Below are positions 43,123-64,000 of a stretch of DNA of 64,000 bases, in pieces (position 1 is the stretch's first letter; the number at the start of each line of letters is the position of its first letter). Origin of the DNA: Natronobacterium gregoryi SP2 (lineage in GTDB: Archaea > Halobacteriota > Halobacteria > Halobacteriales > Natrialbaceae); the NCBI RefSeq assembly GCF_000230715.2, contig NC_019792.1:3410001-3474000 (forward strand), given 5' to 3'. The translations under genes and the position numbers were made by a program. The notes beneath the pieces were generated by a model, which did not search any database, was not told the origin of the DNA, and was given only the letters and a program-made list of their open reading frames with translations.

Positions 43123-43191
43123 TTTTGACCCCAGATTGATGTAAGCATTGAAGTGTCTATAGGTGATATGTGGAATACACCGACCGTCAAA

Positions 43192-44738: not shown

Positions 44739-44793
44739 AAACCGAATTAAAATCAGCCGTATAAGTTCTCTCGCCTTCTCATTTTCTCACGTC

Positions 44794-45781: not shown

Positions 45782-45829
45782 ATATAATATAATTAAAAGG
45801 CAGGAGTAAAGGGGTTGGGGTGGTTCGAT

Positions 45830-46582: not shown

Positions 46583-46679
46583 TTCTAGTTTACATCTACT
46601 ACCCTATATAAGTGACCCCGTTCTGTTTACAGGGTGTAAACAGATGACCATCAAATTACAACCTTCAAGAGAATAGGAA

Positions 46680-46880: not shown

Positions 46881-46881
46881 G

Positions 46882-47609: not shown

Positions 47610-47725
47610 ATACATTATAATATAGTATGTCGGTGGGCTAAGGCTTTGGGTCATCCGGAAAGTCAGTTGTTGGTTTTGCAGAAAATGAGAATTGGAGGTG
47701 AAATCAGGGGGTCAAGGAGTCAGTA

Positions 47726-48175
47726 TTACTGTTCGGTTTTATAGTCTTGATTCGGGTCATAGGAGAACGGGGTGTCACCGCTGTCAATATCTGCATCTGA
47801 GAACGGACCTGTTTTGATGGCGAATTCAATGTTAGAGTCTACTCCTTGTAGAGTCTCTTTCAAGAACTCAGTACTACCAGAAATGATAATGAGTGTCGAA
47901 TACAGAGTGCAACTTTCATCTGGTTTGATTATTTCCACCCCTCCGAAATTTATGAAGGCATCTACAGGGTAGCTGTGTTGTTGAACATTGTGTAGTGACT
48001 TGGGTTCCCCGTTTCTTTCTCGTATCTTTTGTTTCAAATGGTTAGTATTCATCTCTTTGAACGATTTCGGACCAGAATAACCTAATCCACGTTTTTCAAC
48101 TTCGGATTTTATGGCTTTGATAGAACTATCCACATCTTGTTCAGAAGTACCATAAATTAGGATGCCGGTTTTCAT
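47726..48175 (-). CDS. uS10-fold-like protein
   Basis: 149 residues. The N-terminal third follows ribosomal protein S10: strand ILIYGTSEQDVDSSIKAIK, helix EVEKRGLGYSGP. In haloarchaeal S10 the same places read GTSPDDLDD and GxxxSGP. The final strand NIEFAIKTG matches the S10 end. The central loop differs and the C-terminus is acidic. Viral or plasmid-borne S10-like proteins are not standard; a regulator borrowing the fold is as likely as a ribosomal function. Similarity judged by eye. Confidence 0.45.
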   Translation of the reverse strand: MKTGILIYGTSEQDVDSSIKAIKSEVEKRGLGYSGPKSFKEMNTNHLKQKIRERNGEPKSLHNVQQHSYPVDAFINFGGVEIIKPDESCTLYSTLIIISGSTEFLKETLQGVDSNIEFAIKTGPFSDADIDSGDTPFSYDPNQDYKTEQ

Positions 48176-48346
48176 TTTGGTCGTATTGGTTGACCATACA
48201 CATATATTTGTATCTCGTATCGATTACTACTAGATACAATCTACCACTGGGTGGATTAAAATTGAAATCAGAGAGCTACAGATTCAAATTTCACCTCAGT
48301 TGGTGCTTCTGTTAGGAGACTCAATAACTGAGTATCGATAGTTGAG

Positions 48347-51286
48347 TTAGCTGAAATCGTTTAGAGTCGTACTCTCACGGGCTGCTTCAACACCCGGTAG
48401 TTCGATAGCTCCAGTATCTTCGTCAACACGTTCACTTCTCTCGACCAGAACTGTCGTCTTGTGTCCAGCACCTTCATCTCGCATACTGATTAGTGCCTCA
48501 AGAGACTGCTTTACTTCACTCAGAAGCTCCTCATTATCGCCTTCGAGATTGAGTGCTTCGAGAACGGCTCGGTCAAGTGCATCCCGTTCTTCCTCAGTAT
48601 TCTCGAACGTAGCGTCTTCAACCTCTTCTTCACGGTTTCGAAGGTCTTGGAACGCTTCTTTGATATCCTGTTTCGTATCTCCGTCGATATTGTTCGGGTC
48701 TGGAACAGGCCATTGTTCAGTCTCGTATACTTTTGTTTGGAGACGAGTCATCCCTTGGCCACCTGCTCGACGCCCAAGTAATTCATTCGCTATCCCGACA
48801 ATCCGGGAATTCAGTATTCCTCCGAGGACTTCTTCATCAATATCTTCGGGTGGTTCGATGTAGTAGAATTGGTCACTGGTCGCAGCTTCAACATCGTTCC
48901 AGAAGACACGGTGGACTCTCCATGTGAACATGGTAGAGAGAAGTTTTGGACGAGGTAACGTCCCTAAATCAAACCAGATATCCCGAGCTTGTTGTGTTCT
49001 ACGTTCATGGTATTCGTCATCTTCTCCACTCTCGATATACTCAAGGAGAGGGTGATGGTCGTTCTCCTCCAACCACTCTTTTACTTGTTCAGTTTCAGTT
49101 GTTCCGAAATCTGCATCTCCAGCAAGAGCTTCTCTCACGTAATCATGAACATCTAGGATAACCCACTCAGAAGCTTCTTCTTCGGTGACTGGAATTGTTT
49201 CTACTTGCCCAGTCGCCTTGAGCAATGGACTCGTATATGGCTCTAGTCCGAGGTCATGCATATCTTCCGTATGGCCTGTAAAGAAAGCGTTAGCTCCGGT
49301 CGTAATACCACGGCTCACTTTAGCTATTTCAGAGAGTTCAACCACATTGGGGCAAGCTTGGAGGTCAAAGTAGATTGGAGGTCCGAAGAAGAATGTATTC
49401 CATTTGCTCTCATGATAGAGAGAAGATTGTTTCCGAGTAACAAGTCGGTAGTTATCCTCTGAAATCATCTGATTTGTATCTGTTTCAGATTTGACTAGGG
49501 TGACAATATCATCAATATCCATTTCGTTAGTCACCCGGAGGAATTTTGTTATATTGTCGTCTCGCTCCTCTTCATTATCTTCTTTTTCAAGGATGATAAC
49601 GCTGGAGTCTACAAGTGCGTCGTCAAACACTTGTCGGTCAAATTTGATAATAGCATTTATTCTGTAATTGTTTAGCAAGAACTTCTGAACGTCTTCTCCA
49701 TATTTTGTATCTAACCAGCGGTCACTGATGATATATCCTAACTTCCCACCGTCTGCTAGGAACTCCGTCGCATGTGTGATGAAGTATGAATAGATGTCAG
49801 AGCGTTTTGAGATATACTCACCATCTATCTCTCGGTTGCTAAGGTGGTCTCTGACTTTCTCTTTGTCATCGATGTTTTCCTGCCGGATGTATGGTGGGTT
49901 CCCAACAACAGCATCAAAACCTCCAACTTGTTCCTGAAGGTCTTCCTCAGTCTCAGCTCCTTCAGTTTCTTCACCTTCAGCACTCGCCCGGGTTCTCTCA
50001 AACCGCTGGTAGCGTTTTACGTCGAAGAAGTCAGTAATCTCGATATCAACGTCTTCTGTATACGAAGTCAAGTCTTGGATGGCGAGATTAATTGCTGAGA
50101 GGTGGGCTGGGAACCGATTGATTTCAACTCCAGATATCTGGGTGAGGATTCGTTCATGGCTCCCTTGTGGTTCAGATAATAATTGTTGGAGGCGGTGGTA
50201 AGAACTAACAAGAAAACCACCACTACCACACGAGGGGTCGAGGACGTTAGCACTCTCATCTTCGATAGTTAGCCTCGTAATTAAGTCACAGATTTGTGGT
50301 GGGGTGTAGTACTCCCCCATATCTTGGCGTCGTTCGGCAGGTATAACGCCTTCATATATTTGCCCGATAACGTCGCTGTCGAATTGACTGAGGTCCTGTT
50401 CGTCAAGTTCTATTATGAAGTCTCGAATCTTTGATGAAACAGGGTCAAGCGGAATTTCGTCATATACATCGTCATGCTCGAATACCGCTTCAAAGTCTAC
50501 TTCATCAACAATTTGGTCGAAGTAGTCACGAAGGTCTTCTTGAACACGATGAGGGCTCACCGCCAATGGCTCTACATCTTGGGAGTATGTAGGAGCACTC
50601 TCTAGAATCTTGTAGAAAATTATCTTGTTGATTAGGAGATATGCGGCTTGTTCAGCGAATTCTCTCCGAACTTCGCTTGGGTTATCTCCGGGATAATCTA
50701 TTCCTTGTTTAGAAGTCCACTTTTTAAAATCCTCATTGAATTCGTCATCTTGTTCTAAATGCTCCTCCATTGAATCCTCAAGTCGAGGAGTGACGTACTC
50801 ATGAAGGGTATTAACACGGTCAATGAAAATGTTGTCAAGGGCGTCCCAACGCTGGTCGCCCGCAGCTAATCGACCAATTTCATCGAGAAGTGTACTTGCA
50901 AACTCCTCTGGGTCCGAAATTTCGTATGATTTCTGTGACCTCTCAAGTAACGGCACACCTTCTTCGAAGGCGTCAAAGACAACTAATCGCTCTTCATTGT
51001 ATGTACAGAAATACGGGGCTCCGAGGTCTCCCGCGTATCCAAACGCTTGGCGGATAACGTCGGCTGCATAAGGGTCAATATCTCGGCCACCGTCTGGACG
51101 TTTAGCCTCAATAACAAATACTGGACTCCCATTTTCATCAAATACCACAAGGTCTGCACGACCAGAAATCCCTTCATTGTATTCTGGACGGGCATGTCCG
51201 AATGTGATGTCACCACGAGTTGGTTGTTCTTCAATTGCGTTTTCGAGGTATCTGTAGAAATCGAAATGAATATCAGCTTCACTCAT
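48347..51286 (-). CDS. Type IIG-like restriction-modification enzyme
   Basis: 979 residues combining three parts. The N-terminal PD-(D/E)xK nuclease domain has D45, E60, K62 (GRADLVVFD and VFVIEAKRP). The N6-adenine methyltransferase has motif I near 349 (VLDPSCGSGGFLV) and NPPY near 464. A C-terminal target-recognition region (ELSEIAKVSRGITTGANAFF, RAGGQGMTRLQTKVYETEQW) ends with a coiled-coil tail. Such single-chain enzymes methylate and cut. It would defend the host and its resident element against incoming DNA. All motifs look intact. Confidence 0.9.
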   Translation of the reverse strand: MSEADIHFDFYRYLENAIEEQPTRGDITFGHARPEYNEGISGRADLVVFDENGSPVFVIEAKRPDGGRDIDPYAADVIRQAFGYAGDLGAPYFCTYNEERLVVFDAFEEGVPLLERSQKSYEISDPEEFASTLLDEIGRLAAGDQRWDALDNIFIDRVNTLHEYVTPRLEDSMEEHLEQDDEFNEDFKKWTSKQGIDYPGDNPSEVRREFAEQAAYLLINKIIFYKILESAPTYSQDVEPLAVSPHRVQEDLRDYFDQIVDEVDFEAVFEHDDVYDEIPLDPVSSKIRDFIIELDEQDLSQFDSDVIGQIYEGVIPAERRQDMGEYYTPPQICDLITRLTIEDESANVLDPSCGSGGFLVSSYHRLQQLLSEPQGSHERILTQISGVEINRFPAHLSAINLAIQDLTSYTEDVDIEITDFFDVKRYQRFERTRASAEGEETEGAETEEDLQEQVGGFDAVVGNPPYIRQENIDDKEKVRDHLSNREIDGEYISKRSDIYSYFITHATEFLADGGKLGYIISDRWLDTKYGEDVQKFLLNNYRINAIIKFDRQVFDDALVDSSVIILEKEDNEEERDDNITKFLRVTNEMDIDDIVTLVKSETDTNQMISEDNYRLVTRKQSSLYHESKWNTFFFGPPIYFDLQACPNVVELSEIAKVSRGITTGANAFFTGHTEDMHDLGLEPYTSPLLKATGQVETIPVTEEEASEWVILDVHDYVREALAGDADFGTTETEQVKEWLEENDHHPLLEYIESGEDDEYHERRTQQARDIWFDLGTLPRPKLLSTMFTWRVHRVFWNDVEAATSDQFYYIEPPEDIDEEVLGGILNSRIVGIANELLGRRAGGQGMTRLQTKVYETEQWPVPDPNNIDGDTKQDIKEAFQDLRNREEEVEDATFENTEEERDALDRAVLEALNLEGDNEELLSEVKQSLEALISMRDEGAGHKTTVLVERSERVDEDTGAIELPGVEAARESTTLNDFS

Positions 51287-51383
51287 GGTATTTGGTCACC
51301 ATGTTTAGACTTGTTGAGATACTAGAGGCTTGTATCTTACTGTATCATAACTCTATTTGGTGAAGTGACGAAGCCAATAGAGT

Positions 51384-51617
51384 ATGGTGAAGGGATTTCA
51401 TAAAGGAGACCGAGTTCGAATTGATATCCCCGATGAAACTGACCCAGACCACGACAGATTCCACGGAGAGCAAGGGGTAGTCCAAGATATCATCGAAGAT
51501 GATGCAGGGTCAGAAACTGGAGACCCACGTGACAATATACTCTACCAAATACAACTAAATAACGGCAAGGAAATGGGTTTCAGATGGCGAGACCTCCGTC
51601 CAGCCGACACTGTATAG
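51384..51617 (+). CDS. Small SH3/KOW-like protein
   Basis: 77 residues. GDRVRIDIPDETDPDHDRFH then GEQGVVQDIIED and LYQIQLNNGKEMGFRWRDLRP look like a small barrel of the kind found in haloarchaeal HAH_0734-type proteins. It is divergent from the restriction-modification gene and convergent with the HhH gene (1 bp apart). Confidence 0.65.
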   Translation: MVKGFHKGDRVRIDIPDETDPDHDRFHGEQGVVQDIIEDDAGSETGDPRDNILYQIQLNNGKEMGFRWRDLRPADTV

Positions 51618-51866
51618 TCAATTTCGAAAATGCTTGTGAACTGCTTTAGCTTGGTCCTCGCTAATCCCATCGACACGAGCTAATTCCTCAACAGAAGAGG
51701 TTGCCACAGCATCAAGAGAACGGTACTCCTGAAGCAGACGTGCTGCGTCCGTCTCATCAACACCCGGGATATCTTCCTCCACAAGCTCATCATGGCTGTT
51801 GGAGATTTCTCGGAACTCGTCCATTCCGTCCGTCTGGATGTGGACCCCTTCGAGGTTCAGTTCCAT
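51618..51866 (-). CDS. Helix-hairpin-helix protein
   Basis: 82 residues. The C-terminal half is a tandem HhH like the end of XPF/ERCC4 and UvrC: EDIPGVDETDAARLLQEYRS then LARVDGISEDQAKAVHKHF. Non-specific DNA binding is expected. No nuclease domain is attached. Confidence 0.75.
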   Translation of the reverse strand: MELNLEGVHIQTDGMDEFREISNSHDELVEEDIPGVDETDAARLLQEYRSLDAVATSSVEELARVDGISEDQAKAVHKHFRN

Positions 51867-51985
51867 TTTCTGGTCTATTGAACCGGGGTAGTGTTATAGT
51901 TATCGGGGGTAAAAGAAAAATAGACTCTCCGCTGTGGAGACCTCCCCCATCTCCTGTTGCGTCCACGTCGCCCGGGCGAAGAAAA

Positions 51986-52207
51986 TCAGTCAAGGATTCC
52001 GAATTTAATCAGAATCATTAGGAACACAACTATCACAGTCCCAATCAGCGTCCAAATACCCCACGCTTCAGGGGTACACAGCGGGTCATATTCCATGGGG
52101 AGATGTCCTGTAGCAGCAATAATCCCTGAAATAACGCCTCCGACGATTGAACCGAGTAGCGGAATCAGCCATAGTATCACTAAGTATTTTAGTAATTTTA
52201 GTATCAT
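51986..52207 (-). CDS. Small membrane protein, two TM segments
   Basis: 73 residues from ATG 52207. TM1 LKYLVILWLIPLLGSIVGGV and TM2 IWTLIGTVIVVFLMILIKFG are separated by a loop containing one Cys. Function unknown. Confidence 0.6.
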   Translation of the reverse strand: MILKLLKYLVILWLIPLLGSIVGGVISGIIAATGHLPMEYDPLCTPEAWGIWTLIGTVIVVFLMILIKFGILD

Positions 52208-52268
52208 GTATTCATAACTACACAATCTGCTAGTAAAGGGTTTTCCCGGATAAGATAGAGAATCTATC

Positions 52269-52484
52269 TTAGACTTGCTCGGTCAAGTCAAATCGTAGTA
52301 AAACGCTATCTCCTGTGGTGTCCACGTAGATTATCGGCGGATGGTCGTCTCCTGAAACTCGAAATCCGATATCTCCTGAGAATCGCAGTGTGACTTTGCC
52401 CCCTTCTTCATCAATGTTTTTCAATTCAGAAGAAGGGGATGTAGAGAGTACCGAGGTGATGTAGTCTACTGATTTTTCTGTCAC
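52269..52484 (-). pseudogene. Truncated paralog of the 52976 and 53503 family
   Basis: The readable part (VTEKSVDYITSVLSTSPSSE to LLRFDLTEQV) matches the N-terminal domain of the 52976-53413 protein but lacks the C-terminal zinc ribbon. Upstream, NDRDDLRDLIDPPR continues in frame, but the expected ATG is out of frame because of extra bases near 52530, leaving only an internal GTG at 52484. It has its own copy of the family promoter. Likely decaying. Confidence 0.6.
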
Positions 52485-52664
52485 TCGGGGCGGGTCGATA
52501 AGGTCTCGGAGGTCGTCACGGTCGTTAATCCATACGCACTCGTATATGATGCTGCGATAACTTATACGATTGATTATCTTTCACCCTTCCTTGTGTTGGT
52601 AAAATCAGGCGTGGTTTTCGGATTCTATCACGCAATAGATAGGGGTTTTGTACCTCAAAAACAG

Positions 52665-52982
52665 TTATTCGAGCCGAAATATCTCATCCCAGACCACGCA
52701 ACTCCGTTCTGAAGCTAGCTCCACGGCGTGTTGGGCAGCTTCGGCTTCGGAGTTGAAGAACCCGTGTGATTCGATTATTTTTCTATTTCCATCATCGTCT
52801 TCAGCTTCCCGAATCACTACGTCGTGAGCCTTGGCATCGGGGTCTCGATGGCGTACGTGAGTGTCGTCTCCGGGTAGGCGGTAGACTTGGATGTGTTGGT
52901 AATCAACTACCCGTTCGTCAGTGATGTAGTCGGATTCGGCGTGGTCGGAGACCTGCCCTGATACACCATTCCGTTCTAGCAT
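52665..52982 (-). CDS. Hypothetical protein
   Basis: 105 residues, alpha/beta: VVDYQHIQVYRLPGDDTHVR, DVVIREAEDDDGNRKIIES and a helix with AEAAQHAVELASE. The pattern resembles small DUF2188-like proteins that interpret as a strand-helix unit, but this is not certain. Overlaps the upstream paralog gene by 7 bp, so they are co-transcribed. Confidence 0.6.
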   Translation of the reverse strand: MLERNGVSGQVSDHAESDYITDERVVDYQHIQVYRLPGDDTHVRHRDPDAKAHDVVIREAEDDDGNRKIIESHGFFNSEAEAAQHAVELASERSCVVWDEIFRLE

Positions 52983-53413
52983 TCTCCGACTCTTTCAAGG
53001 AACGTCACTGAATCAATAACGTATCGTTCTCCACACCCCGGGCACTCTAGTTGCTCGTTCATGTTTCCTGCTGCCCACATCTCTAGTTCGGTATCGCAAT
53101 CAGGGTACGTATCGGTATCTAGCCCGGCTGATTTTTGTTTGATTTGGTCGATAGTGTTTGATAAGTCAAAGGTCATCAGAACTCCATCCACAGTCGTATC
53201 TAATCGTACAATGGGTGGGTGAGAATCCGATGAAATGCGAAGACCGAGGTCTTCCGAGAATCGAAGTGTAACCTTGCCCTCTTCCTCTTTTACGTTTTCT
53301 ATAGTGCATGTTGGATTAGTGGATATTATCGAGGAGATGTAGTCTACTGATTTTTCAGTCACTCGTGGCGGGTCAACTAGCTCACGGAGGTCGTCACGGT
53401 CAGGCATACACAC
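52976..53413 (-). CDS. Tandem paralog with C-terminal zinc ribbon (copy 2)
   Basis: 145 residues (ATG 53413 or 53407). The N-terminal domain has VTEKSVDYISSIISTNPTC, GKVTLRFSEDLGLRISSDSH and VRLDTTVDGVLMTFDLS strands. A C-terminal zinc ribbon follows (YPDCDTELEM and LECPGCGERYVIDSVTFLER). The same two-domain plan recurs at 53503-53931. The conserved upstream segment has a TATA-like GTATAAGTT about 30 bp from the start, indicating a leaderless transcript. Function unknown. Confidence 0.65.
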   Translation of the reverse strand: MCMPDRDDLRELVDPPRVTEKSVDYISSIISTNPTCTIENVKEEEGKVTLRFSEDLGLRISSDSHPPIVRLDTTVDGVLMTFDLSNTIDQIKQKSAGLDTDTYPDCDTELEMWAAGNMNEQLECPGCGERYVIDSVTFLERVGEC

Positions 53414-53502
53414 GTATATGATTCTACGAGAACTTATACGACCGAGTATATTTCACTCGACTGTGTACAAGTAAAAAATCAGGAATCGCCCGGGAGAAGA
53501 AA

Positions 53503-53931
53503 TTACTCTCGTGCGAACGCTAATCGTTTGATGAACGACACTGTGTTAACCACATACCTATCCCCGCACCCTGTACACACACGTTCATGTTTATTTTCTA
53601 CGGGGTCTTCCAAATCCCACTCACACTGTGGACACGTATTGATATCTAGCCCTTCTGCGATTTGTTCGATGGGGGTAGTCAGGTCGAAAGTCAGGTACAT
53701 CCCGTCCCCGTACGTGTCTACCTCCCGAATCTCTGGATGGTCTTCTCGGACACTTAGGACAGCTAAGTGAGGAAAATGTATGGTGACACGCCCGGCATCG
53801 GCCCACATATCATCGATGTACGCAGACGATTCTGGACCAATATGGGCTTTAATGTAATTTACCGAGTGCTGGTGGATAACAGGCTGATTAGCTAACTCTT
53901 CTAAATCCTCCATGTCGTATGACATACACAC
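53503..53931 (-). CDS. Tandem paralog with C-terminal zinc ribbon (copy 3)
   Basis: 142 residues. VIHQHSVNYIKAHIGPESSA, GRVTIHFPHLAVLSVREDHP and VDTYGDGMYLTFDLTTPIEQ align with copy 2, as does the zinc ribbon (CPQCEWDLED and VCTGCGDRYVVNTVSFIKRL). Sequence identity is moderate, so the duplication is not recent, yet promoter DNA upstream is nearly the same in all copies. Confidence 0.65.
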   Translation of the reverse strand: MCMSYDMEDLEELANQPVIHQHSVNYIKAHIGPESSAYIDDMWADAGRVTIHFPHLAVLSVREDHPEIREVDTYGDGMYLTFDLTTPIEQIAEGLDINTCPQCEWDLEDPVENKHERVCTGCGDRYVVNTVSFIKRLAFARE

Positions 53932-54068
53932 GTATATGGGCCTACGCTAACTTATACGACCGATTATATTACACTCCACTGTGTATAAGTAAAAAATCAG
54001 GCGTGGTTTTCGGATTCTACACTGTAACAGATGGGGGTTTTCCGTCTCAGAATCGGACTTAGACTACG

Positions 54069-54569
54069 TTATGGTTCACTCAACTCCATTCGCACCGTTA
54101 TTTCTACATCTTCGTCCATCGGTGCTTCGTGTCGTTCTGCATTTAACTGGAGTTGGTGCTGTCCCTCTGTTTCAATTTCATACTCATTGGTGTCTCCGTC
54201 GTCTTCTGGATAGAAGTGATGACTGTGTACAAATGCTGTACCGTCTCCGACCTGAAAATGCAACCTTTCACCTTCGGCAATATCTGTTGCTTGGACAGTC
54301 ACAGTTTGCCCATCGACTACATCCACGTGCCAGTCACGTAGGTCAGTTAATGTGTCATCGAACACAACGCCGGTTTCGTAGTCGTCATCATCCCCAGTAG
54401 TATCATCATCATCAGATTCATCTTGGCCATTGTTTCCGTTCTCCTCATCATCACCATCAGTATCTTCTGGACCTTCTGGGTCTTCTTGGTCAGTATCGTC
54501 AGCAGTACACCCAGCCACTCCAATGACTCCAACTCCCCCAATCGTGGAAAGCACCTTTCGCCTGTTCAT
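54069..54569 (-). CDS. Tat-type lipoprotein
   Basis: 166 residues from ATG 54569. MNRRKVLSTIGGVGVIGVAGC is a haloarchaeal Tat lipoprotein signal with lipobox VAGC, followed by a long Asp/Glu/Gly/Asn-rich linker. The globular domain (QVGDGTAFVHSHHFYPEDDG, YEIETEGQHQLQLNAERHE) may be a small beta sandwich with a His pair. Exported and membrane anchored; ligand unknown. Confidence 0.75.
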   Translation of the reverse strand: MNRRKVLSTIGGVGVIGVAGCTADDTDQEDPEGPEDTDGDDEENGNNGQDESDDDDTTGDDDDYETGVVFDDTLTDLRDWHVDVVDGQTVTVQATDIAEGERLHFQVGDGTAFVHSHHFYPEDDGDTNEYEIETEGQHQLQLNAERHEAPMDEDVEITVRMELSEP

Positions 54570-54612
54570 ATAGAATTGATTATACCCGGGCAAAATAATA
54601 CTTCTCGTCTAA

Positions 54613-54795
54613 CTATTCTCCATCGTAGACTCTGGTATACTTCAAAATCAAGCGTCCTTCATCGTCCTCAGTTTCCTCGATGGCGAATACGTCTCCTCGC
54701 TCCACATCATGTTTTCGAGTTATAGATGCTGGGATAGAGATATCCATCGTCGCAGTTCCCTTCCGACCACGCACCTTCACTGTCTTCTTCGTCAT
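54613..54795 (-). CDS. SpoVT/AbrB-type DNA-binding protein
   Basis: 60 residues from ATG 54795 (MTKKTVKVRGRKGTATMDIS). The swapped-hairpin AbrB pattern is clear: ATMDISIPASITRKHDVERG followed by DVFAIEE and LILKYTRVY. It is a likely transition-state-type regulator or antitoxin-like DNA-binding dimer. Confidence 0.8.
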   Translation of the reverse strand: MTKKTVKVRGRKGTATMDISIPASITRKHDVERGDVFAIEETEDDEGRLILKYTRVYDGE

Positions 54796-54958
54796 CGTGG
54801 AGTGGCAACGCAAGATTGTCAAAAACACTTTTTTAACCATATTACGCAGTATGTACATAACTGATAAGTTAGTTGATTAATCCGCCAGCGTTATACGTGT
54901 CAGGAATCAACCTTCGCCCGGGGGATGGGGGATTCCTCCATTTCGCCCACATACCACC

Positions 54959-55207
54959 ATGGTATATCAAATTGACAGCGACGAATCCACAACCACTGCT
55001 GTTGTCCAAGCTGTTGCTGACCACAAAGGAGTCCATCACGAGGAGTTAGAGCCGATATACGGAACTGTCGAGCCAGATGCCTTAGAGTCGATTGTAGACA
55101 GAGGCTATGATGTTGTGGTTCAGTTTGAGTACGAAGGAGAGGTCGTCACAGTAGGTCCTAATCAGATTAAGCTTGGCGACAGGGAATCCAGCATGGAGCA
55201 GGCTTAA
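54959..55207 (+). CDS. HalOD1-like small protein
   Basis: 82 residues. TAVVQAVADHKGVHHEELEP, YGTVEPDALESIVDRG and VVVQFEYEGEVVTVGPNQIK match the HalOD1 plan seen also in the chromosomal protein at 36482-36766. It is one of few plus-strand genes in this part of the element. Confidence 0.75.
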   Translation: MVYQIDSDESTTTAVVQAVADHKGVHHEELEPIYGTVEPDALESIVDRGYDVVVQFEYEGEVVTVGPNQIKLGDRESSMEQA

Positions 55208-55216
55208 CGAAGACTG

Positions 55217-55351
55217 TCAGTCGTCCAAATCCGCATCCGACGCTACGTGAGCTTGTAGAACATTCCGGATGTGGTAATCTTTTTCGCTAGCTTCATTCGC
55301 TTGGAGAGCCTGTTCTAAGTGCGTTTTCGCATCTTCGCTAAGGCCTGTCAT
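55217..55351 (-). CDS. 44-residue helical protein
   Basis: MTGLSEDAKTHLEQALQANE, then ASEKDYHIRNVLQAHVASDA and DLDD. Two amphipathic helices with a clean start and stop. The closing acidic tail and codon pattern fit a genuine small haloarchaeal gene, of the kind often found in plasmids. It ends 10 bp after the convergent HalOD1-like gene. Confidence 0.5.
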   Translation of the reverse strand: MTGLSEDAKTHLEQALQANEASEKDYHIRNVLQAHVASDADLDD

Positions 55352-55470
55352 CCCCAACTAAGGGCAGAGACTAATTATAGAAAAATCTTCCTTTTCGACT
55401 GTCATACCACACAGAGGCAAAAATTCCGAACAGGTTCGGTAACTATTGAACGAACGTCATTTCCGTGTCG

Positions 55471-56574
55471 CTATCCGTCGTAATCGTGGTACACGTCTAT
55501 TTCCGAATCCGTGCTAATCATCCACGTTCGACCATCTCCAGAGATTTTCACACTGACATCCCGGGACTCAAACTCATCTTGCCAAACCACATCTCCGCTA
55601 CCATCGTAGACGTTTGCGGTATGTACGCCTTCCGTGGCGTCTTCATACCGGGCAATACTCCGTCCACTACTGCTGATATCCACGGCATCGTACCACCAGA
55701 GCCCGACTTCGTTGTGAGTCCACTGTTCGTTCCCATCCGGGTCAAATGCGATTGTATTTTCAACATCATGGGTGAGTAGGGTTTCTCCATTCTGTGAAAG
55801 TTCAAAGAAACCGCCGAGGTCTTGGTCTGTCCACCGAATATCCCCATCAAGGTCGTACACAAGGAGCCTTCCATCGTCTAACCCAACAACAGCTATTTCA
55901 TTGCTGATAGCGGCTCTAATAGGTGGTTCATCAAACTCATCGGACCAGATGTGTTCTCCATCATGGGCCACATGAATTGCATCTTCGTTTTCAGGTTCAT
56001 CCTCACGGTCTTCCGTACGAGCGATAGCATATTCGCCGGAGGGAGAAGTATCAGCTTCCCACACACGCCCTGATGGAAGTCCAGTTTCCCATAGAACAGC
56101 GTCATCCATTGACAGAGCCACTAATGATGTAACAGATGCTGTTGTGACCGATTCGAACCCATCAGTTACTCCAGACCCAGCGATTTCAGTTTCGTTCCCT
56201 TCTGCGGTTTCCATCGTCCGCTGCCATTGTGACTCTCCGTCTCGGTCGTAGAGTGTGATAGTGCCGTGGACGATTGAGATAAGCTGGTCTCCATCCGGGG
56301 AAAGATGCACATCGGCGTTGTCTTCAGTAATCGTCCTCGAAGCTCCATCCGGGTCGTGTAGTATTGTTTCTCCAGTAGCCGCAGTAACCATCGTGTGGCC
56401 GTTTTCGGAGATATCCATGTCATAGTACGTTCCGTCTTCGAGTTGGAGTACACGCTCTATGCCGTCTCCATCACCGAATCCTGTATCCGCCGATAACTCT
56501 TCTTCTGAACAACCAGCTAGTCCAATCGCTCCTGCTGCTGCTGCAATCCCACCCAGATACGCCCTCCTGTGCAT
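55471..56574 (-). CDS. Beta-propeller Tat lipoprotein
   Basis: 367 residues. MHRRAYLGGIAAAAGAIGLAGC is a Tat lipoprotein signal with lipobox LAGC. The rest is a PQQ/WD40-like propeller with repeated DxDGxxxW blades (YDRDGESQWQRTM, YDLDGDIRWTDQDLGG, FDPDGNEQWTHNEVGLWW, YDGSGDVVWQDEF). It is anchored outside the membrane, where it may bind partners or act as a receptor-like surface protein of the element. Confidence 0.8.
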   Translation of the reverse strand: MHRRAYLGGIAAAAGAIGLAGCSEEELSADTGFGDGDGIERVLQLEDGTYYDMDISENGHTMVTAATGETILHDPDGASRTITEDNADVHLSPDGDQLISIVHGTITLYDRDGESQWQRTMETAEGNETEIAGSGVTDGFESVTTASVTSLVALSMDDAVLWETGLPSGRVWEADTSPSGEYAIARTEDREDEPENEDAIHVAHDGEHIWSDEFDEPPIRAAISNEIAVVGLDDGRLLVYDLDGDIRWTDQDLGGFFELSQNGETLLTHDVENTIAFDPDGNEQWTHNEVGLWWYDAVDISSSGRSIARYEDATEGVHTANVYDGSGDVVWQDEFESRDVSVKISGDGRTWMISTDSEIDVYHDYDG

Positions 56575-56642
56575 ACCTCACCCTATTCACGAGTGTCATA
56601 TCAAACTACTCCTATGTTCTTCGCTCAAACGGGTCCAGTCGG

Positions 56643-57398
56643 CTAATCCTTCAAGTCTTGGAGGAACACATCAAACCCCTTGTAAACATCTAGACTTTCA
56701 CTCATTTCAATATTCTCAGTTACAGCGTCTACTAGTTCCAAATTCGCCCATTTCGCTTCTATGAGAAGCATATTGCAATCAGAAAGAATGGCCTGTGTGC
56801 AAACAAGCATATCGGCAAAATCGTTCTCTTTGACGGTCTCGTTCGGGTCCATCATAGAAACTCGATGTAGAAATATTTGCTTTTTCACATACTCAATAAT
56901 ATCCACTTCATGCTCGTGAAGAATGTACTTTTCACCCTCTTCCTTCAAGTAATCCTCAAATGCAAGCCCCTTTAGATTGTCATGGCCCCACTCTTGGTAG
57001 AGTTCTCGTATTTGTTCCATCCCATCGAAGTAGTCTTCTGTAGCACTCCATGTAGAATCTCGAAATACACGCTGGAGCGTTTCTACCTGACCTAAGCCCT
57101 GAGTTTTTCTTCTAACATACCGCCGATATTGATGGTTTGGAATTATATCTAACACAGAATCACTGACATAGAATTCATTTCCGTCTACGGGAGTCGGTGG
57201 GAGGGCTTTGTCCGCAATAGCTACGATTATTTTAGACATCAAGTCTTGTTCGTCTGCCTTCACTAAGTCGATGAAATTCCCTGAGCCAAAGTAAACTTGA
57301 ACATCCTCTCTTGACGTAATATCAAAAAGTTGTTTAAACCGTTGAGGATTATGTTTTAGAAAAATCCAGTAGTTTGTGTCCATCATAATCCGTTTCAT
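56643..57398 (-). CDS. PIN-like domain protein
   Basis: 251 residues. The N-terminal strand MKRIMMDTNYWIFLKHN supplies the first PIN Asp. A C-terminal ENDFADMLVCTQAILSDCN then MLLIEAKWANLELVDA has the second acidic cluster and closing strand. Between lies a long helical insert. PIN proteins are metal-dependent RNases, often toxins; no antitoxin-like gene sits immediately beside it. Confidence 0.6.
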   Translation of the reverse strand: MKRIMMDTNYWIFLKHNPQRFKQLFDITSREDVQVYFGSGNFIDLVKADEQDLMSKIIVAIADKALPPTPVDGNEFYVSDSVLDIIPNHQYRRYVRRKTQGLGQVETLQRVFRDSTWSATEDYFDGMEQIRELYQEWGHDNLKGLAFEDYLKEEGEKYILHEHEVDIIEYVKKQIFLHRVSMMDPNETVKENDFADMLVCTQAILSDCNMLLIEAKWANLELVDAVTENIEMSESLDVYKGFDVFLQDLKD

Positions 57399-57661
57399 AA
57401 CCGACTCTCATTACTCGCCCAATATAAACTTCCGGACCAATCTTCGACCAACCTCGTAAACCGATTCAGTCGCTCGATTCCGATAACTACCGAACGTTCA
57501 AAATCTCTTCTCGAACGCTCTTCGAACACGGATTGACAGAAACCACTGGACGGCATCGAGTCGTTCGGCGTTCGGTGTTCGAGAGCCCCCCTCTCCAATT
57601 GCGGGTGTATACGGGCGCTCGCACGGGCGAGAGAAAGGAAAATGGAAAAATTTCGGCTATT
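57399..57661. other. GC-richer intergenic segment
   Basis: 263 bp without a gene between the ATPase stop and the PIN-like start. It is noticeably richer in GC than the surrounding element and carries repeated TTCTCGAACG/CTTCGAAC words and a GGGCG-CTCGCACGGGCGAG stem. It may be a promoter plus terminator or a small RNA. Confidence 0.35.
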
Positions 57662-58828
57662 TCACTCCATATTCTGGAGTGTCTGGAGCTTCTTATCGTC
57701 AATCAAGTCGGCATCTTCTTCCAGCAATTCGTCTTTGTGTTGCTTGATTTTCTCTCGAACAGTAGATTTGCTATCGTAATCCGAGAACGCTACTATATCA
57801 GACATGGACCTGTCGGTGAAAGCGTAGACCGCAGCAAGTTTCTCGTCTTCTTTCTCCTGCTTGAAGTCCTCAAATTCCTCCTTCGTAGCGAAGTCATCTT
57901 CTTCTTTGTCCTCGTCATCGAAAATGAATTTCCCTTCGTCGTAGGTCTCAAAGTGGATATCCGTCGGAGGAACACCGTCAAGTCGTTCCATGAGGTCTCC
58001 ACCTTCTCTGTCCTTCAGCGTCTTGAATATCTTAGCCTGTGTGAGAGCCGATTTATGGACGAACACGGTACACAGTGCCCGTAGAGCCTTGTCTATATCC
58101 TTTCCATCCTGCCCTATAAGGAACATATGAGCGTTAGATTTCCGGGCCAGCTTCAGCACTTTCGCTAACTGTTTCGCTCGATGTTGGTCAGCTCCGACTC
58201 CCGTAAAAATTTGCGCCGCTTCGTCGATTATCATCACAAACGGCGGGAGGTCTTCGCCTGCCTGCATCCTGTCACGGCGGTCTTCAAGTAGTTCGACTAG
58301 CCGAGAATAACGTTTAATCTCCATATCAATATCATCAGACTTCATGTTCGCCGCTGTGATGATGTCTTGGTCCCGGTAGATGAACTGGAAAACCTCCAAC
58401 ATCAGGGCTGAGAAGTCTGTTTTCCCGTGACCCATCGCTCCGAACACATAGGCGAGGAACACGGGTTGGGATTCGACTGCCTTCACTAACTTCATCAACG
58501 CTTTGAATCCGCTTGCATCAGTCTCGTAGCCCACAATCCCACTCTGGTAGGATAAGTGGGTCATGTTCCCCCGGAGGATACTTTCAGTTGAACTCTTCGT
58601 GGCGTGTTTTTGCACTACCCAGTGACAGTATGGCGTCTCTCCGAAGCTGTCGTAATCACCGTACGGCTCGAAGTGGAGAGCGCACTGGTGGAGATGGTTC
58701 AACGTTCGTTCGTCGGTTACAAGCCCCGTCCACCAGTAGTGTGGAGACTCGTCTTGTTTGGGAAGATTTCCATCTACGAATTCTTTGAATTCGGCTTCTA
58801 TCGGGCGTTCACGGGCGTTTGCGCTCAT
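57662..58828 (-). CDS. P-loop ATPase of the HerA/FtsK-like type
   Basis: 388 residues. Walker A at 130-137 (GAMGHGKT) and Walker B at about 198-205 (FVMIIDEAAQ), followed by a sensor-like HMFLIGQDGKD strand. The C-terminal ~80 residues are charged helices. No membrane helix. In pleomorphic haloarchaeal viruses a VP8-type ATPase closes the structural block, and HerA/FtsK proteins pump DNA, so a packaging or DNA-transfer motor is inferred. Coupled by ATGA to the upstream membrane protein gene. Confidence 0.75.
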   Translation of the reverse strand: MSANARERPIEAEFKEFVDGNLPKQDESPHYWWTGLVTDERTLNHLHQCALHFEPYGDYDSFGETPYCHWVVQKHATKSSTESILRGNMTHLSYQSGIVGYETDASGFKALMKLVKAVESQPVFLAYVFGAMGHGKTDFSALMLEVFQFIYRDQDIITAANMKSDDIDMEIKRYSRLVELLEDRRDRMQAGEDLPPFVMIIDEAAQIFTGVGADQHRAKQLAKVLKLARKSNAHMFLIGQDGKDIDKALRALCTVFVHKSALTQAKIFKTLKDREGGDLMERLDGVPPTDIHFETYDEGKFIFDDEDKEEDDFATKEEFEDFKQEKEDEKLAAVYAFTDRSMSDIVAFSDYDSKSTVREKIKQHKDELLEEDADLIDDKKLQTLQNME

Positions 58829-59670
58829 TCGTCATCACCTCCTTCAGAGTCGTCCTTGTCACGGTCGGGAAGCTGGTATTGCCCTTCTCGCAGGTCGTGG
58901 TCCTCTTCTTCCCGCTTACGTTCAGTCTCTTCAATGTGTTCTCGAACAGGAGAGTTCGGAAGTTCACCTTCCGCAAGTGTCTCTCGCTCGAAGTCCCGAA
59001 TCATCCGGTTAGTCTCACGAGCGGCGTCCTCTGTGGCGTAATCTTTCCGCCGTGAGTCTGTTTCAACGGCAGCTTGGTACTTGCCGTCTCGGTCTTCTAT
59101 AACCTTCTCTAGCTTGTCCTCGTGGACTCGAAGTTCATACATAGACATATTGCCGATATCGGGCGCAACAGCAATGTTATCGTCTTTATAGTACGCTACT
59201 GCTTCGTAGAAATTGCCGTTGAAGTTGAGTGCAGATGTGTTCGTTTTCTCACCCATAAATCGTGGAGCGTCTGAATCGTACAGATACACATCTAGGTCGC
59301 TCCAGTCTCGTTCTGAAAGTTCGAAGCCTCCACCAACACCGCCGTTAGCGACGTTAGTAGCGAATAGTTCCCGGTCGTCCGTACGGTACAGCATGTAGGC
59401 AACAACCGTCCCCGGTATCAAACTCAGTATGATGAACCAGAAGGCAATGTTGAGAAACCCACCGTAAGGGTCTCCAAAGAGTCCAAATCCAAGCACATCG
59501 AGCAATCCGAAGAACGCTATCACCAGCAAAGTGAAAAATGGTGCTATACCTATAACAGCTATTTTCACCCAGTAGAGTACCGTTCTGATTCCTTCTCCAA
59601 TGTACTGGATATTCGTTTTTTGATTTTCTTTCTCTTCCTCAGATTCATGTTGGTAAGTATTCCCCGTCAT
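58825..59670 (-). CDS. Membrane protein with two N-terminal TM segments
   Basis: 281 residues. A short charged N-terminus is followed by TM1 KIAVIGIAPFFTLLVIAFFG and TM2 IAFWFIILSLIPGTVVAYML. A soluble cytoplasmic-type domain follows (YDSDAPRFMGEKTNTSALNF), ending in charged helices. ATGA overlaps join it to the ATPase gene and to the upstream gene, so it may anchor the ATPase at the membrane. Confidence 0.7.
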   Translation of the reverse strand: MTGNTYQHESEEEKENQKTNIQYIGEGIRTVLYWVKIAVIGIAPFFTLLVIAFFGLLDVLGFGLFGDPYGGFLNIAFWFIILSLIPGTVVAYMLYRTDDRELFATNVANGGVGGGFELSERDWSDLDVYLYDSDAPRFMGEKTNTSALNFNGNFYEAVAYYKDDNIAVAPDIGNMSMYELRVHEDKLEKVIEDRDGKYQAAVETDSRRKDYATEDAARETNRMIRDFERETLAEGELPNSPVREHIEETERKREEEDHDLREGQYQLPDRDKDDSEGGDDE

Positions 59671-60221
59671 TTGCCAAACACCTTTTTACCACCTGTTATT
59701 TTATCGATGAAACTGAACAAGAGAAGCCCTGAAGCCACGATACTCCCGAAGGAGAAGACAATCCCAGATACGATGTAAACTGGACTCCACTCATCACCAG
59801 ACGGTGGCCCACGTATAGGCGGGTCAGAGAGGTCGTCGGTCATGTACCGTGACGAATCGATTGTAAATGTCACAACGGGGTCCTCCTCAACATCGACAGT
59901 AACGACGTTCTCACCTTGCTCTAAGCGCATATCTTCCACTGGGGGAAGGGCACCACCACCAGATGTACCATCATCAGCATAGGAACCCGAAACACCTGCC
60001 CTATCAGACTCGATGACAGCTTCTACTTCACCATCATCCGTTTCCCGGTATTCAACAAGCCTCACACTGTCTGAAAACTCGAATTCGTAATTCTGTACCT
60101 CGTTAACTTCTTCGTCCTCTTGTTCTTGCGCCGAGACCTCGACGGAGACCAACCCCATGAGGAGACCGGCGACAAGCAAGAGAACTACAACTCCAACAAG
60201 TATTTTCAATATTCTAAACAT
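59667..60221 (-). CDS. Secreted-type membrane protein with C-terminal TM
   Basis: 184 residues. An N-terminal signal sequence (LKILVGVVVLLLVAGLLMGL, cleavage near VSAQEQ) precedes a beta-rich extracytoplasmic domain (ENVVTVDVEEDPVVTFTIDS) and a C-terminal membrane helix (IVSGIVFSFGSIVASGLLLF). Type I topology, like virus envelope or pilus-type accessory proteins. Confidence 0.7.
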   Translation of the reverse strand: MFRILKILVGVVVLLLVAGLLMGLVSVEVSAQEQEDEEVNEVQNYEFEFSDSVRLVEYRETDDGEVEAVIESDRAGVSGSYADDGTSGGGALPPVEDMRLEQGENVVTVDVEEDPVVTFTIDSSRYMTDDLSDPPIRGPPSGDEWSPVYIVSGIVFSFGSIVASGLLLFSFIDKITGGKKVFGK

Positions 60222-60285
60222 ACATTATTATATATGTTTTAGAAGAATAAAGAATCACCGACGAGAAGAGTGTAATCTAGCGATT

Positions 60286-60999
60286 TTACTGCCGTATAGC
60301 TATTCCTAGGATAGCTACTACACCGAAAAGAACCACAATTACAATTCCAGTGAGAGCGATGGCTTCCATGCTAAGTTCGTCCCCGGATTCTCCACCGCCA
60401 CCACCAGCGTCTTCGTCGTCCTCGAACTCAACTGTTTCTTCGCTCGTATCAACGGTCACAGTGCCATCTCCAGTGATTTCCAAGGTCTCCTCGATGGTTT
60501 CAGTTTCTATCTCCACGGTGTGTTCTCCGTCTGTGATTTCTGAGAACGTAGCAAGCCCGTCACTGTCAGTCTCAATGGTTTCCTCGCCAATCGTGACCTC
60601 TGCTTCTTCTACAGCTTCATCATCGTCAGAAACGTCCACATCGACCTCGTGTGTAGTCTCTTCTTCGTCTTCGTCGTCAGAGTCATCCTCTTCAGCAGTG
60701 AGAGTGAGCGTCACGGTCTCGTCCTCTCCATCGATGGAAACGCTTTCTTCGCCCTCTTCGAAGCCATCAGCGTCGGCTGTGGCCGTGTAATCACCATCCT
60801 CTAACTCAGTTTTATCCACTTCTTCCCCGTCTTCGTCTTCGACCGTCACATCGGGGTCCTCGATTGCTACCCCATCTTCGTCTTCAACTTCCACTGTTAA
60901 TTCATAAGTCGATTCTTCTGCTGCTACTGCACCAGTCATAACAGACATGATAACAGCGATTGCTACAATTGCTGCACCTATTTTTGATTTATCAAGCAT
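60286..60999 (-). CDS. Surface protein with tandem carboxypeptidase-regulatory-like domains
   Basis: 237 residues. A signal peptide (SKIGAAIVAIAVIMSVMTGAVAA) is followed by two beta-sandwich repeats, each with a DGDYTATADADGFEEG or DGEHTVEIETETIEET closing strand. They are separated by a Asp/Glu-rich linker; then come Gly-rich DAGGGGGESGDELS and a C-terminal TM (IALTGIVIVVLFGVVAILGI). An extremely acidic extracellular stalk anchored at its C-terminus. Confidence 0.75.
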   Translation of the reverse strand: MLDKSKIGAAIVAIAVIMSVMTGAVAAEESTYELTVEVEDEDGVAIEDPDVTVEDEDGEEVDKTELEDGDYTATADADGFEEGEESVSIDGEDETVTLTLTAEEDDSDDEDEEETTHEVDVDVSDDDEAVEEAEVTIGEETIETDSDGLATFSEITDGEHTVEIETETIEETLEITGDGTVTVDTSEETVEFEDDEDAGGGGGESGDELSMEAIALTGIVIVVLFGVVAILGIAIRQ

Positions 61000-61056
61000 A
61001 CAATAATTAATATGTTATAAAAGAACTAAGGTGTGTGGCCGAAAGGAAGGTTGATT

Positions 61057-63180
61057 TCACGTAGTGGGGTGGGCTCGGAACACCACGTATCCGATAGTAA
61101 GTAGGACTCCGCCGATGAAGACAAATACAATCACTACACCAGCACCAAGACCGAGACCTTCCCAGAGTCCCCAGCCATCATCGTCTCCGCCCGCCGAGAT
61201 GTGGTCATTATGCTCTACTGCGTCACGGATGTCCTGCGTGTCATCGATACGGTCTACGATAGTCACACCATCGTACGATGTGTCCACTCCTTCGTCCACT
61301 GGAACAACATCCACTTCGTCTCCAGAATCACCGTATGCTTCTTCCAGAGTCCAACCGTCATCAAGGGTTACACGGTCGGTTTCTTCTGCGTCGTCTTGAT
61401 AAATCATATCAGCCCCAACGTCGTATTCTTCGCCCGTCTGGAACCCGTACACGTCTGTTAGGCGGTCATCAGCAACCAGCATGTACGTGTCAGACGACTC
61501 GGTAACTGTTTCACCATCATCATCGAATTCAACAAACGATTCAAACAGGGCGAATTCATCGTCCTGAAGCCCGTCTTCGTCTACTTCAACAGTGATTATG
61601 TCTCCATCTGTATCTATAGATACAGCATCCTCATCAGCGTTAATCACATCAACACCGATTTCTTCGGTATCATACCCTGAACTGTCTTCAAACTCAATTT
61701 CGAGAACACCGTCCTCAAACTCCATTTCGTCACGGTGTTGGTAATCGGTAAGACTGACTTCACCTTCCGAATCGGCAAGGTCTTGTGGTTCATCTGCATT
61801 AAGGCGTGGTGCGTCATCCGGGTTAGTCATGACCAGACCTCCAGTGTATTCATCACCGTCTTCTTCCACGACCATCTGTTGGTCAGGGTCAGTTACACTA
61901 GCTCCTGTCATCCTCTCGAAATACAGGTCCACAGCGGCCTGTGTGCCCATAGCAGAACCGTACTCTGTCACAAACTCTCTTGGTCCGAAATATTCATCAG
62001 GAGCTTTCTCTCCCGCATCTACATTATCGTAGTACTCTTCTGGGCGGTCAGACATCATCTCAACCGCCTCAATTCGCTCTTCTTGGACGTACTCAAGATG
62101 GGTTCGAAGGTTATTGTCGAGCGTTGAAACTGTTGTTTCGCTACTTTCAGACGAGTTAGGGTCTTCAGCTACTATCGAAACTGAGTAACTATCATCACTA
62201 CCTGTTTCCGCTATACTCGTTGTATCCGGTTCTGAAAGAGCGTCAGCGTCAGCATCTTCGTAGTGGTAGAGTGTTGCGTATACACCGTTCTCATGTTGTT
62301 TATCAGGGTCTATTTGAAACACGAGGTCAGTACGCTCAGTGGCGTCAGTATCGCCTGTATTATCCCACGGGTCAGCGAATCCCGGGTCGTCGTCAGTCAT
62401 TTCAACATCCTCGATAGCGGTGATGTATTCTAATTCTTCGCCAGCTTCCGTCGTCATCGTGTCTGTGACTAGTTCAGAATCACCAGTCACATCCACTGTA
62501 ACATCCATCTGTCCACGGTAAAGGGTAGCAGTCCCTCTGTGGTATGTCGTTTGTGAGATTTGGATATCGTAGATATTATCTGCGTTATCGGCTTCTGAGG
62601 TTGCTTGGTCCCAGTTATGATACTCAGACCAGAATTCATTGTGAGCCCCCACATCTTCGTGTTCTAAGTCACCGACGAAATTCCGATACGTGCTGTTGAA
62701 ATAGTCCAGTATAGCGTTATTAGCTGCCACTTCTGCCTCAGATAACGGTTCGTCCTCGTAGCGGTGTTCAACAACCTCTTGTTCACCATCGGCAAAGGCG
62801 AAATACGCGAGGTCTTCGTGGCGGTCGTCAGCCATGTCTCCACGGAGTTCGGCCCACATCTGGTCCAGCGAGGCGTGGTGATTGTATGCAGCTTGTTCTA
62901 ACTCGAAGGCGTCACTAGCTTCATCGGGGTCATCTAAGTACGATGATGCCACACAATAAGCCCCCATCATAGCGCCCCCGCCAACTATCCAAGCGTAGGA
63001 ATTATCACATACTCCATCATCATCGTCCGCTACTGCTGTACCAGAGTGTGCATTAATTGACTCAGAAGAGTCTCCAATACCACTAAAACCGCCCATGAGA
63101 GGCATAGTGAACATGCTCAATGCCATCACGAGGGCAAATGTCACAGCCACTAGCCGTCGTCTTGTTTTTGTATATCTCAT
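61057..63180 (-). CDS. Large spike/envelope-like surface protein
   Basis: 707 residues. A basic signal peptide (MRYTKTRRRLVAVTFALVMA) is followed by an N-terminal helical region (DLAYFAFADGEQEVVEHRYE and others), a long acidic beta-rich ectodomain, and a C-terminal TM (LGLGAGVVIVFVFIGGVLLT) with a short cytoplasmic tail ending AHPTT. Only two cysteines follow the signal. This plan matches single-pass spike proteins of pleomorphic haloarchaeal viruses, although it is larger than typical ones. Spike function is inference from architecture and gene order. Confidence 0.7.
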   Translation of the reverse strand: MRYTKTRRRLVAVTFALVMALSMFTMPLMGGFSGIGDSSESINAHSGTAVADDDDGVCDNSYAWIVGGGAMMGAYCVASSYLDDPDEASDAFELEQAAYNHHASLDQMWAELRGDMADDRHEDLAYFAFADGEQEVVEHRYEDEPLSEAEVAANNAILDYFNSTYRNFVGDLEHEDVGAHNEFWSEYHNWDQATSEADNADNIYDIQISQTTYHRGTATLYRGQMDVTVDVTGDSELVTDTMTTEAGEELEYITAIEDVEMTDDDPGFADPWDNTGDTDATERTDLVFQIDPDKQHENGVYATLYHYEDADADALSEPDTTSIAETGSDDSYSVSIVAEDPNSSESSETTVSTLDNNLRTHLEYVQEERIEAVEMMSDRPEEYYDNVDAGEKAPDEYFGPREFVTEYGSAMGTQAAVDLYFERMTGASVTDPDQQMVVEEDGDEYTGGLVMTNPDDAPRLNADEPQDLADSEGEVSLTDYQHRDEMEFEDGVLEIEFEDSSGYDTEEIGVDVINADEDAVSIDTDGDIITVEVDEDGLQDDEFALFESFVEFDDDGETVTESSDTYMLVADDRLTDVYGFQTGEEYDVGADMIYQDDAEETDRVTLDDGWTLEEAYGDSGDEVDVVPVDEGVDTSYDGVTIVDRIDDTQDIRDAVEHNDHISAGGDDDGWGLWEGLGLGAGVVIVFVFIGGVLLTIGYVVFRAHPTT

Positions 63181-63200
63181 AAATTGAAAGTCACCCGTGT

Positions 63201-63401
63201 TTAAAGGTCGTCTACGAACCCTTTACCAGCCATCACAGCCGCTACAATACCAATCAGCACAAAGAACAACCCAATCACTTCACCGCCTGTATCAAGCCGT
63301 GACAGGAGTTCTACGCCGATATTCAGTTCTAAACCGTACAGTGCAACTACAATGCTATTGATTATAGCAAACACCTTTGTCGTTATGTCATCTAAACTCA
63401 T
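63201..63401 (-). CDS. Small membrane protein with two hydrophobic segments
   Basis: 66 residues (MSLDDITTKVFAIINSIVVA). Hydrophobic segments FAIINSIVVALYGLELNIGV and IGLFFVLIGIVAAVMAGKGF enclose a short charged loop. It lies 20 bp upstream of the spike-like gene, where pleomorphic viruses carry their small matrix-type membrane protein. First gene of the block. Confidence 0.65.
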   Translation of the reverse strand: MSLDDITTKVFAIINSIVVALYGLELNIGVELLSRLDTGGEVIGLFFVLIGIVAAVMAGKGFVDDL

Positions 63402-64000
63402 AATGCATTTAATACATATGAGAGCTAAGAATAAATGTCTATGGTCGGATGGATAGTAGTGTGAATTAAACTGGTTAGCTACTACAGTTGAAAAGCGGGG
63501 AGAGAACGGGCGTGAACGGGATATTCACCCGCGAAATCAACAAGGCAGGGCTTTTGAGTTTGACACAGATTCCAGACGTATGACGAACGAGGAGCCCTGA
63601 AACAGACGTACACAGTTCGAATCAGTATTTAACACATCACCTCCAACATAAACTTGGATGGCAAACCCTAAAGGACTTGTCACGATTTGAAATGCATCTC
63701 TCCGACAGGGCCGCACCGCAATTTCGATTCAAGAAGGAAAGTCGGTCTCTGCCTAGAAGGAGTGGAACCCCACCTGTAGGAGACCGGGGGAAGTCCACCT
63801 CGTGGAAGGTCGTGGAGACCTCCAGAAAACTGTAGGTAAGAGAGCTAGGACACAGTGAGGAATCTCCTGTTGGAAACTCGTGGACACCAAAAATAGCTAA
63901 TTCCAAGTCTCTTCCCACGAGCTAGGGAAATCTGGGTGGTCTTCGAGAAGACCTCGATGCTGTGCCAGACTCAGATACTCTACCCGGTATCTGTGAACGC
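63402..64000. other. Non-coding region at the window end
   Basis: About 600 bp without a convincing gene. It contains a hairpin around 63509-63532 (CGGGCGTGAA...TATTCACCCG), a perfect palindrome GGTCTTCGAGAAGACC at 63938-63953, and several related CTCGTGGA words between 63790 and 63890 that suggest a structured RNA or a replication/attachment region of the element. Confidence 0.4.

Follow-up and report, generated by a model that had tools for sequence, protein, structure and literature searches.

Among viruses that resemble DNA-filled membrane vesicles in their behaviour, pleolipoviruses serve as the model. Exchange of replication modules is a known habit of the group, whose genera have RCRE, an HRPV-3 ORF9-type Rep and PolB as their replication hallmarks. 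Isolates and induced proviruses reach up to 20.6 kb (PMC7911831), and complete genomes average 13.5 kb (PMC10599561). Two sets of uncultivated genomes have also been described, the proposed Epsilonpleolipovirus and 12 unassigned genomes near Gammapleolipovirus; the former has spikes that are abnormally large, encodes HNH nucleases as well as invertases and primases, has an enlarged ORF6 and is placed as sister to the delta group (PMC10599561). In plasmid-vesicle elements of the pR1SE type (apHPVs), genes for MCM and integrase are common; ORF6-9 and ORF17-25 make up their two core clusters, and the ORF25 product is similar to a packaging ATPase (PMC10818511).

Here we describe a locus in a 64,000-nucleotide stretch of the Natronobacterium gregoryi SP2 genome (NC_019792.1, positions 3,410,001 to 3,474,000; hereafter the window). 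Six genes at 57662-63401 very probably form an operon for virion assembly that belongs to an integrated, temperate virus of the pleolipovirus type, in a lineage of about genus depth that is unrepresented by the isolates compared. The features of the element are collected in Table 1.

Table 1. Features of the provirus (window positions unless a contig or locus prefix is given; hhalign values are from profile-profile comparison with known pleolipoviruses)
Feature	Position	Strand	Evidence
attL, TCTCGGTCCAGTCACTCATT = 5' end of rfcL	43104..43123	.	20-bp repeat; empty sites
Tyrosine recombinase (integrase), 359 aa, just inside attL	43659..44738	+	Pfam Phage_integrase 5.4e-25
Serine recombinase (resolvase/invertase type), 250 aa	45830..46582	-	Pfam Resolvase 1.3e-28
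Type IIG-like restriction-modification protein, 979 aa, cargo	48347..51286	-	Pfam N6_Mtase, Eco57I, HSDR_N
Small two-TM protein, 79 aa, downstream of block	51986..52225	-	common to G061 and G345 proviruses (6.3e-32 and 3.3e-10)
ATPase, 388 aa, VP8/ORF8-type	57662..58828	-	phrog_1979 1.1e-54; hhalign 100%, 6.4e-54
ORF7-like two-TM protein, 281 aa	58825..59670	-	hhalign 98.1%, 6.7e-13 vs known ORF7; ATGA overlap on either side
ORF6-like protein, signal + C-terminal TM, 184 aa	59667..60221	-	phrog_1938 3.9e-12; hhalign 98.3%, 1.1e-13
Accessory surface protein, 237 aa	60286..60999	-	Pfam PF13620 3.4e-8; same position in G212, G216, G345, G061
Spike, 707 aa, VP4/VP5 homologue (predicted fusion/receptor protein)	61057..63180	-	hhalign 99.8%, 2.7e-27; PDB 6qgi/6j7v/6qgl by profile and fold
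Small two-TM protein, 66 aa, candidate internal membrane protein	63201..63401	-	position and profile kept in G212, G216, G345, G061
MCM helicase	L002:12749-14944	-	Pfam MCM 8.4e-52, MCM_lid, MCM_OB
Acidic GLUG-repeat surface protein, 637 aa, signal + C-terminal TM, right end	L002:15913-17826 (window-scale 69913-71826)		
attR, 19/20 identical to attL	G000:C1:3482381-3482400 (window-scale 72381-72400)	.	repeat of rfcL 5' end

The structural block and its homologues

The six reading frames are all open, lie on the minus strand and agree with a preliminary description of the block in gene number, order, topology and the coupled starts of the last three genes. Topology was assigned by a simple hydropathy scan, which places two TM segments in the 66-aa protein, an N-terminal signal and one C-terminal TM segment in the 707-aa protein, a signal and a C-terminal TM segment in each of the 237-aa and 184-aa proteins, and two TM segments in the 281-aa protein. 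ATGA overlaps couple the starts of the 184/281 and 281/388 gene pairs, and the 388-aa ATPase has both a Walker A (GAMGHGKTDF) and a Walker B (VMIIDEAAQ) motif.

When profiles built from three members of the lineage were compared with those of known pleolipoviruses, spike, ORF6, ORF7 and ATPase gave full-length matches, and the four genes are adjacent and in the same order as the four-gene Pleolipoviridae core. The family matched by the ATPase, phrog_1979, is that of HRPV-1 VP8 and the SNJ2 NTPase, and phrog_1938, matched by the 184-aa protein, is that of HRPV-1 ORF6 and its SNJ2 counterpart; the spikes of relatives G212, G216, G061 and G108 match phrog_2231 (6.5e-19 to 4.7e-63), the family of HRPV-1 VP4, SNJ2 VP13 and the His2 spike. 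Judged by these profiles, the four proteins are homologues of the products of pleolipovirus core genes. Profile comparison of the 66-aa protein gave no match to VP3 or His2 VP27, and no VP3-type internal membrane protein of ~130 aa was recognised in the element.

Known spikes are reached from the 707-aa protein by profiles only, a direct tblastn search of phage and plasmid records having returned nothing. A five-member spike profile matches the crystallised HRPV VP5 spikes, which belong to the V-shaped VP4/VP5 fusion proteins (6qgi, 1.9e-12; 6j7v, 5.7e-10; 6qgl, 9.5e-7), with 6qgi aligned in three ordered stretches. An AlphaFold2 model of moderate confidence (pLDDT 65.8), in which the arrangement of the domains relative to each other is uncertain, was also used for a fold search; the HRPV VP5 spikes are its sole PDB matches below 1e-3 (best 2.6e-10), and HRPV-11 VP4 is its best viral match. 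With TM-scores as low as 0.23-0.35, the fold evidence applies to local regions and does not imply the same overall arrangement. The preliminary description had named S-layer and adhesin folds as what the protein might resemble instead; the matches are to pleolipovirus spikes and not to those folds, and its proposal of a pleolipovirus-like structural block is borne out by the profile-profile, solved-structure, fold and synteny comparisons together. The tandem Ig-like stalk that it had also envisaged fared differently. The clear Ig-like domains are those of the separate 237-aa protein, encoded between the spike and ORF6 genes and composed of a signal, two CarboxypepD_reg/Ig-like stretches, a Gly-rich linker and a C-terminal TM segment; no such stalk was demonstrated in the spike itself, although its C-terminal half is rich in beta strands in the model.

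Related proviruses and the position of the lineage

Of 392 Halobacteria genomes searched with a profile of the lineage ATPases, 8 contain matches at E ~1e-99 or stronger, at nine loci in all (weakest 2.9e-99); the next match was at 5e-56. The order small membrane protein - spike - Ig-like/PKD protein - ORF6 - ORF7 - ATPase is found in the window and in G212, G216, G345 and G061, and since these six genes keep their order in four other genomes, the arrangement is not due to chance. The Ig-like protein of these five members is of the CarboxypepD_reg or PKD type and lies between spike and ORF6; in G374 it precedes the spike, and in G240 (C2 locus) and G108 other surface proteins take its place. 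Spike and ATPase homologues travel together and are not scattered independently. Two other spike matches were rejected, one (G279) being partial and without an ATPase within the 20 kb examined, and the other (G302) belonging to an ordinary SNJ2-like betapleolipovirus.

The G061 provirus is collinear with the window provirus in its flanking genes too. Four relatives end in exact tRNA repeats of 22-27 bp: G061 (tRNA-Val, 27 bp; ~23.7 kb), G240 (tRNA-Gly, 22 bp; ~25.5 kb), G345 (tRNA-Arg, 25 bp; ~18.3 kb) and G108 (tRNA-Lys, 27 bp; ~24.7 kb), the sizes being obtained by subtraction. Complete lineage proviruses whose ends are defined occur across several haloarchaeal families. Among GTDB contigs the ATPase block matches Natronoglomus mannanivorans, of the same family as the window's host (Natrialbaceae), and Halostagnicola sp. 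A56, whose contigs are fragmentary, with ATPase pieces ~93% identical in protein and 84-86% in DNA; a first scan of GTDB contigs with the spike gave no match. In N. mannanivorans an HNH endonuclease gene (L078:10680-11246) lies directly downstream of the ATPase. The G394 genome (83% complete) has one lineage spike in five pieces over contigs C18 and C19 (L056, L070, L073, L075, L076), which looks like a scrambled or concatenated assembly.

In a tree of ORF7 and ATPase, the marker pair of PMC10599561, the lineage forms a clade (support 99.1/100), with every alpha, beta, gamma and delta isolate in the tree falling outside it and delta at a distance; most branches deeper than this clade are weakly supported. 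The preliminary description had raised the possibility of a new lineage, and the separate clade agrees: the lineage stands at about genus depth and none of the isolates compared represents it, with the rank of new genus provisional, since Epsilonpleolipovirus entered the comparison by its description only.

The Betapleolipovirus isolates (SNJ2, HRPV-3, HHPV-3/4, Harhisp1) share with the provirus the core order spike - ORF6 - ORF7 - ATPase and a temperate habit with a tyrosine integrase, resemble its relatives in their tRNA att sites, and are the group matched best by the spike, ORF6 and ORF7 profiles. In contrast, the provirus ATPase is only ~25% identical to theirs, the provirus has an MCM and no beta replication protein among the proteins compared, its Ig-like protein lies between spike and ORF6, it is integrated at rfcL, and at 29.3 kb it is longer than the beta isolates compared (8.8-19.5 kb) and exceeds the pleolipovirus sizes of PMC7911831 and PMC10599561. 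Gammapleolipovirus (His2, Hardyhisp2) is similar in its ATPase (27%, 1e-17) and likewise encodes, close to the spike, a small protein with two TM segments and an accessory surface protein of the virion, but no PolB homologue was found in the provirus, whose accessory protein follows rather than precedes the spike and which is chromosomally integrated.

It is possible, though we think it unlikely, that the element is the provirus form of an uncultivated group already on record, either Epsilonpleolipovirus or the set of 12 unassigned genomes close to Gammapleolipovirus (PMC10599561). The gene content described for Epsilonpleolipovirus (PMC10599561) has parallels in the lineage, whose members have large spikes, a serine recombinase, HNH beside the ATPase and, in G345, a gene resembling a primase-polymerase. 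HNH, invertase and primase genes occur in parts of both groups, and both lack a classic pleolipovirus replicase. By its description, however, Epsilonpleolipovirus is sister to delta and has an enlarged ORF6, whereas here the size of ORF6 is normal and the tree places delta far from the clade, and IMG/VR scans aimed at the lineage or its neighbours recovered the isolates His2, HHPV3 and HHPV4 but nothing from the lineage itself. A scan of IMG/VR for the delta type found delta relatives only. One 24.6-kb viral contig (IMGVR_UViG_3300028323_000002) has three delta-type ATPase loci (L159, L160, L166) and is a repeated or chimeric contig.

Provirus ends and the putative replication module

The block lies within an element of 29,297 bp (G000:C1:3453104-3482400) in the single-contig, 3.79-Mb host genome, of which 43104..64000 falls in the window and ~8.4 kb beyond it. 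The GC content of the element is 0.461, against 0.622 in the left flank; it drops from 0.62 to 0.46 at ~43.1 kb of the window and climbs again ~8.4 kb past the window end. The border repeat, TCTCGGTCCAGTC(A/G)CTCATT, differs by one base between attL and attR and encodes MSDWTE of rfcL on the minus strand. In four congeneric genomes (G084, G166, G320 and G363) the two flanks of the element meet, and because their matches overlap there by exactly 20 bp, the att repeat, the provirus ends given above are exact. A second att-like copy with flank, 87% identical, is found at G000:C1:3484261-3484351, 1.9 kb to the right of attR with IS-like sequence between, and was probably left behind by a further insertion at rfcL. 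The integrase has weak relatives in Humcor2 and Harhisp1, and the serine recombinase has a close homologue in the G240 provirus (9.7e-112).

Sequencing beyond the 64 kb had been proposed as a way to find replication genes, and an MCM helicase gene is indeed present in the part of the provirus past the window. In the genomes tested, no MCM matches it better than that of the G240 provirus (221 bits), and both remaining MCM loci of the host score lower (164 and 85 bits); it is not the housekeeping copy. The G240 gene shares the orientation of the surface genes, upstream of which it lies, and a third MCM sits ~15 kb away from G240's other ATPase locus. Instead of MCM, G345 has an NrS-1-polymerase-like (primase-polymerase-like) protein and G108 a D5/DUF5906-type protein, so MCM is not universal in the lineage, being present in the window provirus and at least one relative. 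The window provirus's MCM matches 18 phage records, with no pleolipovirus among the 15 matches listed. When 22 provirus proteins were compared with the ORFs of the isolates, only the integrase and a MarR-type regulator matched, and no counterpart of RCRE, HRPV-3 ORF9-type Rep or PolB was found. About 24 kb to the left of the window, at G000:C1:3385962-3387620, is a second MCM gene that does not look like a housekeeping one, perhaps in another mobile element.

On balance we favour a specific form of the viral reading, in which these are members of an undescribed genus-level lineage of temperate pleolipoviruses of ~18-29 kb that would have exchanged the usual replicases for a dedicated virus-type MCM (or a primase-polymerase-like protein in sister members) and would carry a second, Ig/PKD-containing surface protein beside the spike, here integrated at the start of the replication gene rfcL and not in a tRNA gene. 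Such a lineage would add an MCM-based module and a two-protein surface to the pleolipoviruses. The provirus might also be decayed and inactive, retained for its surface or restriction-modification cargo; the one-base difference between attL and attR, the IS elements and second att-like copy just right of attR, and the fact that the integrated state alone is seen all fit this reading, but the core ORFs, integrase and MCM are open with intact motifs, and we regard decay as improbable.

Vesicle elements, host surface genes and the predicted virus cycle

The preliminary description had also entertained a vesicle-forming transfer element, and an origin as a plasmid-vesicle element (pR1SE-like, apHPV) and not a virus must be considered. 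Like the provirus, apHPVs frequently combine MCM and integrase, their DNA is borne in vesicles, and ORF25 is packaging-ATPase-like (PMC10818511). However, the four pleolipovirus core genes are present here and in order, the spike and ATPase found no match in 72,556 plasmid records, and the structural gene set of pR1SE, taken from its description, is a different one; we consider such an origin highly improbable. A host cell-surface operon of S-layer, adhesin or pilus type next to an unrelated ATPase, to which the Ig-like and PKD domains and the nearby acidic GLUG-repeat protein might point, is less credible still, given that the block sits within a mobile element absent from four congeners and that the only PDB matches below 1e-3 are pleolipovirus VP5, and an S-layer or adhesin operon is ruled out by the spike profile and fold matches together with the empty sites.

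For the integrated pleolipovirus-type virus, a cycle can be proposed by analogy with the biology of the family, from which excision, virion formation and the roles of individual proteins are all inferred. The integrase would recombine the 20-bp att sites and excise a circle, on which the MCM helicase may initiate or unwind replication with host polymerases. The cell membrane would receive the spike, the small membrane protein and the Ig-like protein, the last of these acting as a second surface component, and ORF6, ORF7 and the ATPase may aid DNA loading or assembly. DNA-carrying, vesicle-like virions would then bud without lysis, and the spike would bind the S-layer and fuse membranes in the next host. 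In hosts of the lineage it is possible to test directly whether the provirus excises, whether it replicates through MCM and what the extra surface protein does.

Two further predicted proteins of the provirus deserve mention. The GLUG-repeat protein at the right end is possibly another virion or cell-surface component; its C-terminal region resembles the 237-aa protein (BLAST 3e-19, without composition correction), a value to be discounted because both proteins are compositionally biased. At 55471-56574 the provirus encodes a repeat-rich, 367-aa predicted lipoprotein, which has a Tat-like signal with a lipobox and a weak match to DUF5711 only.
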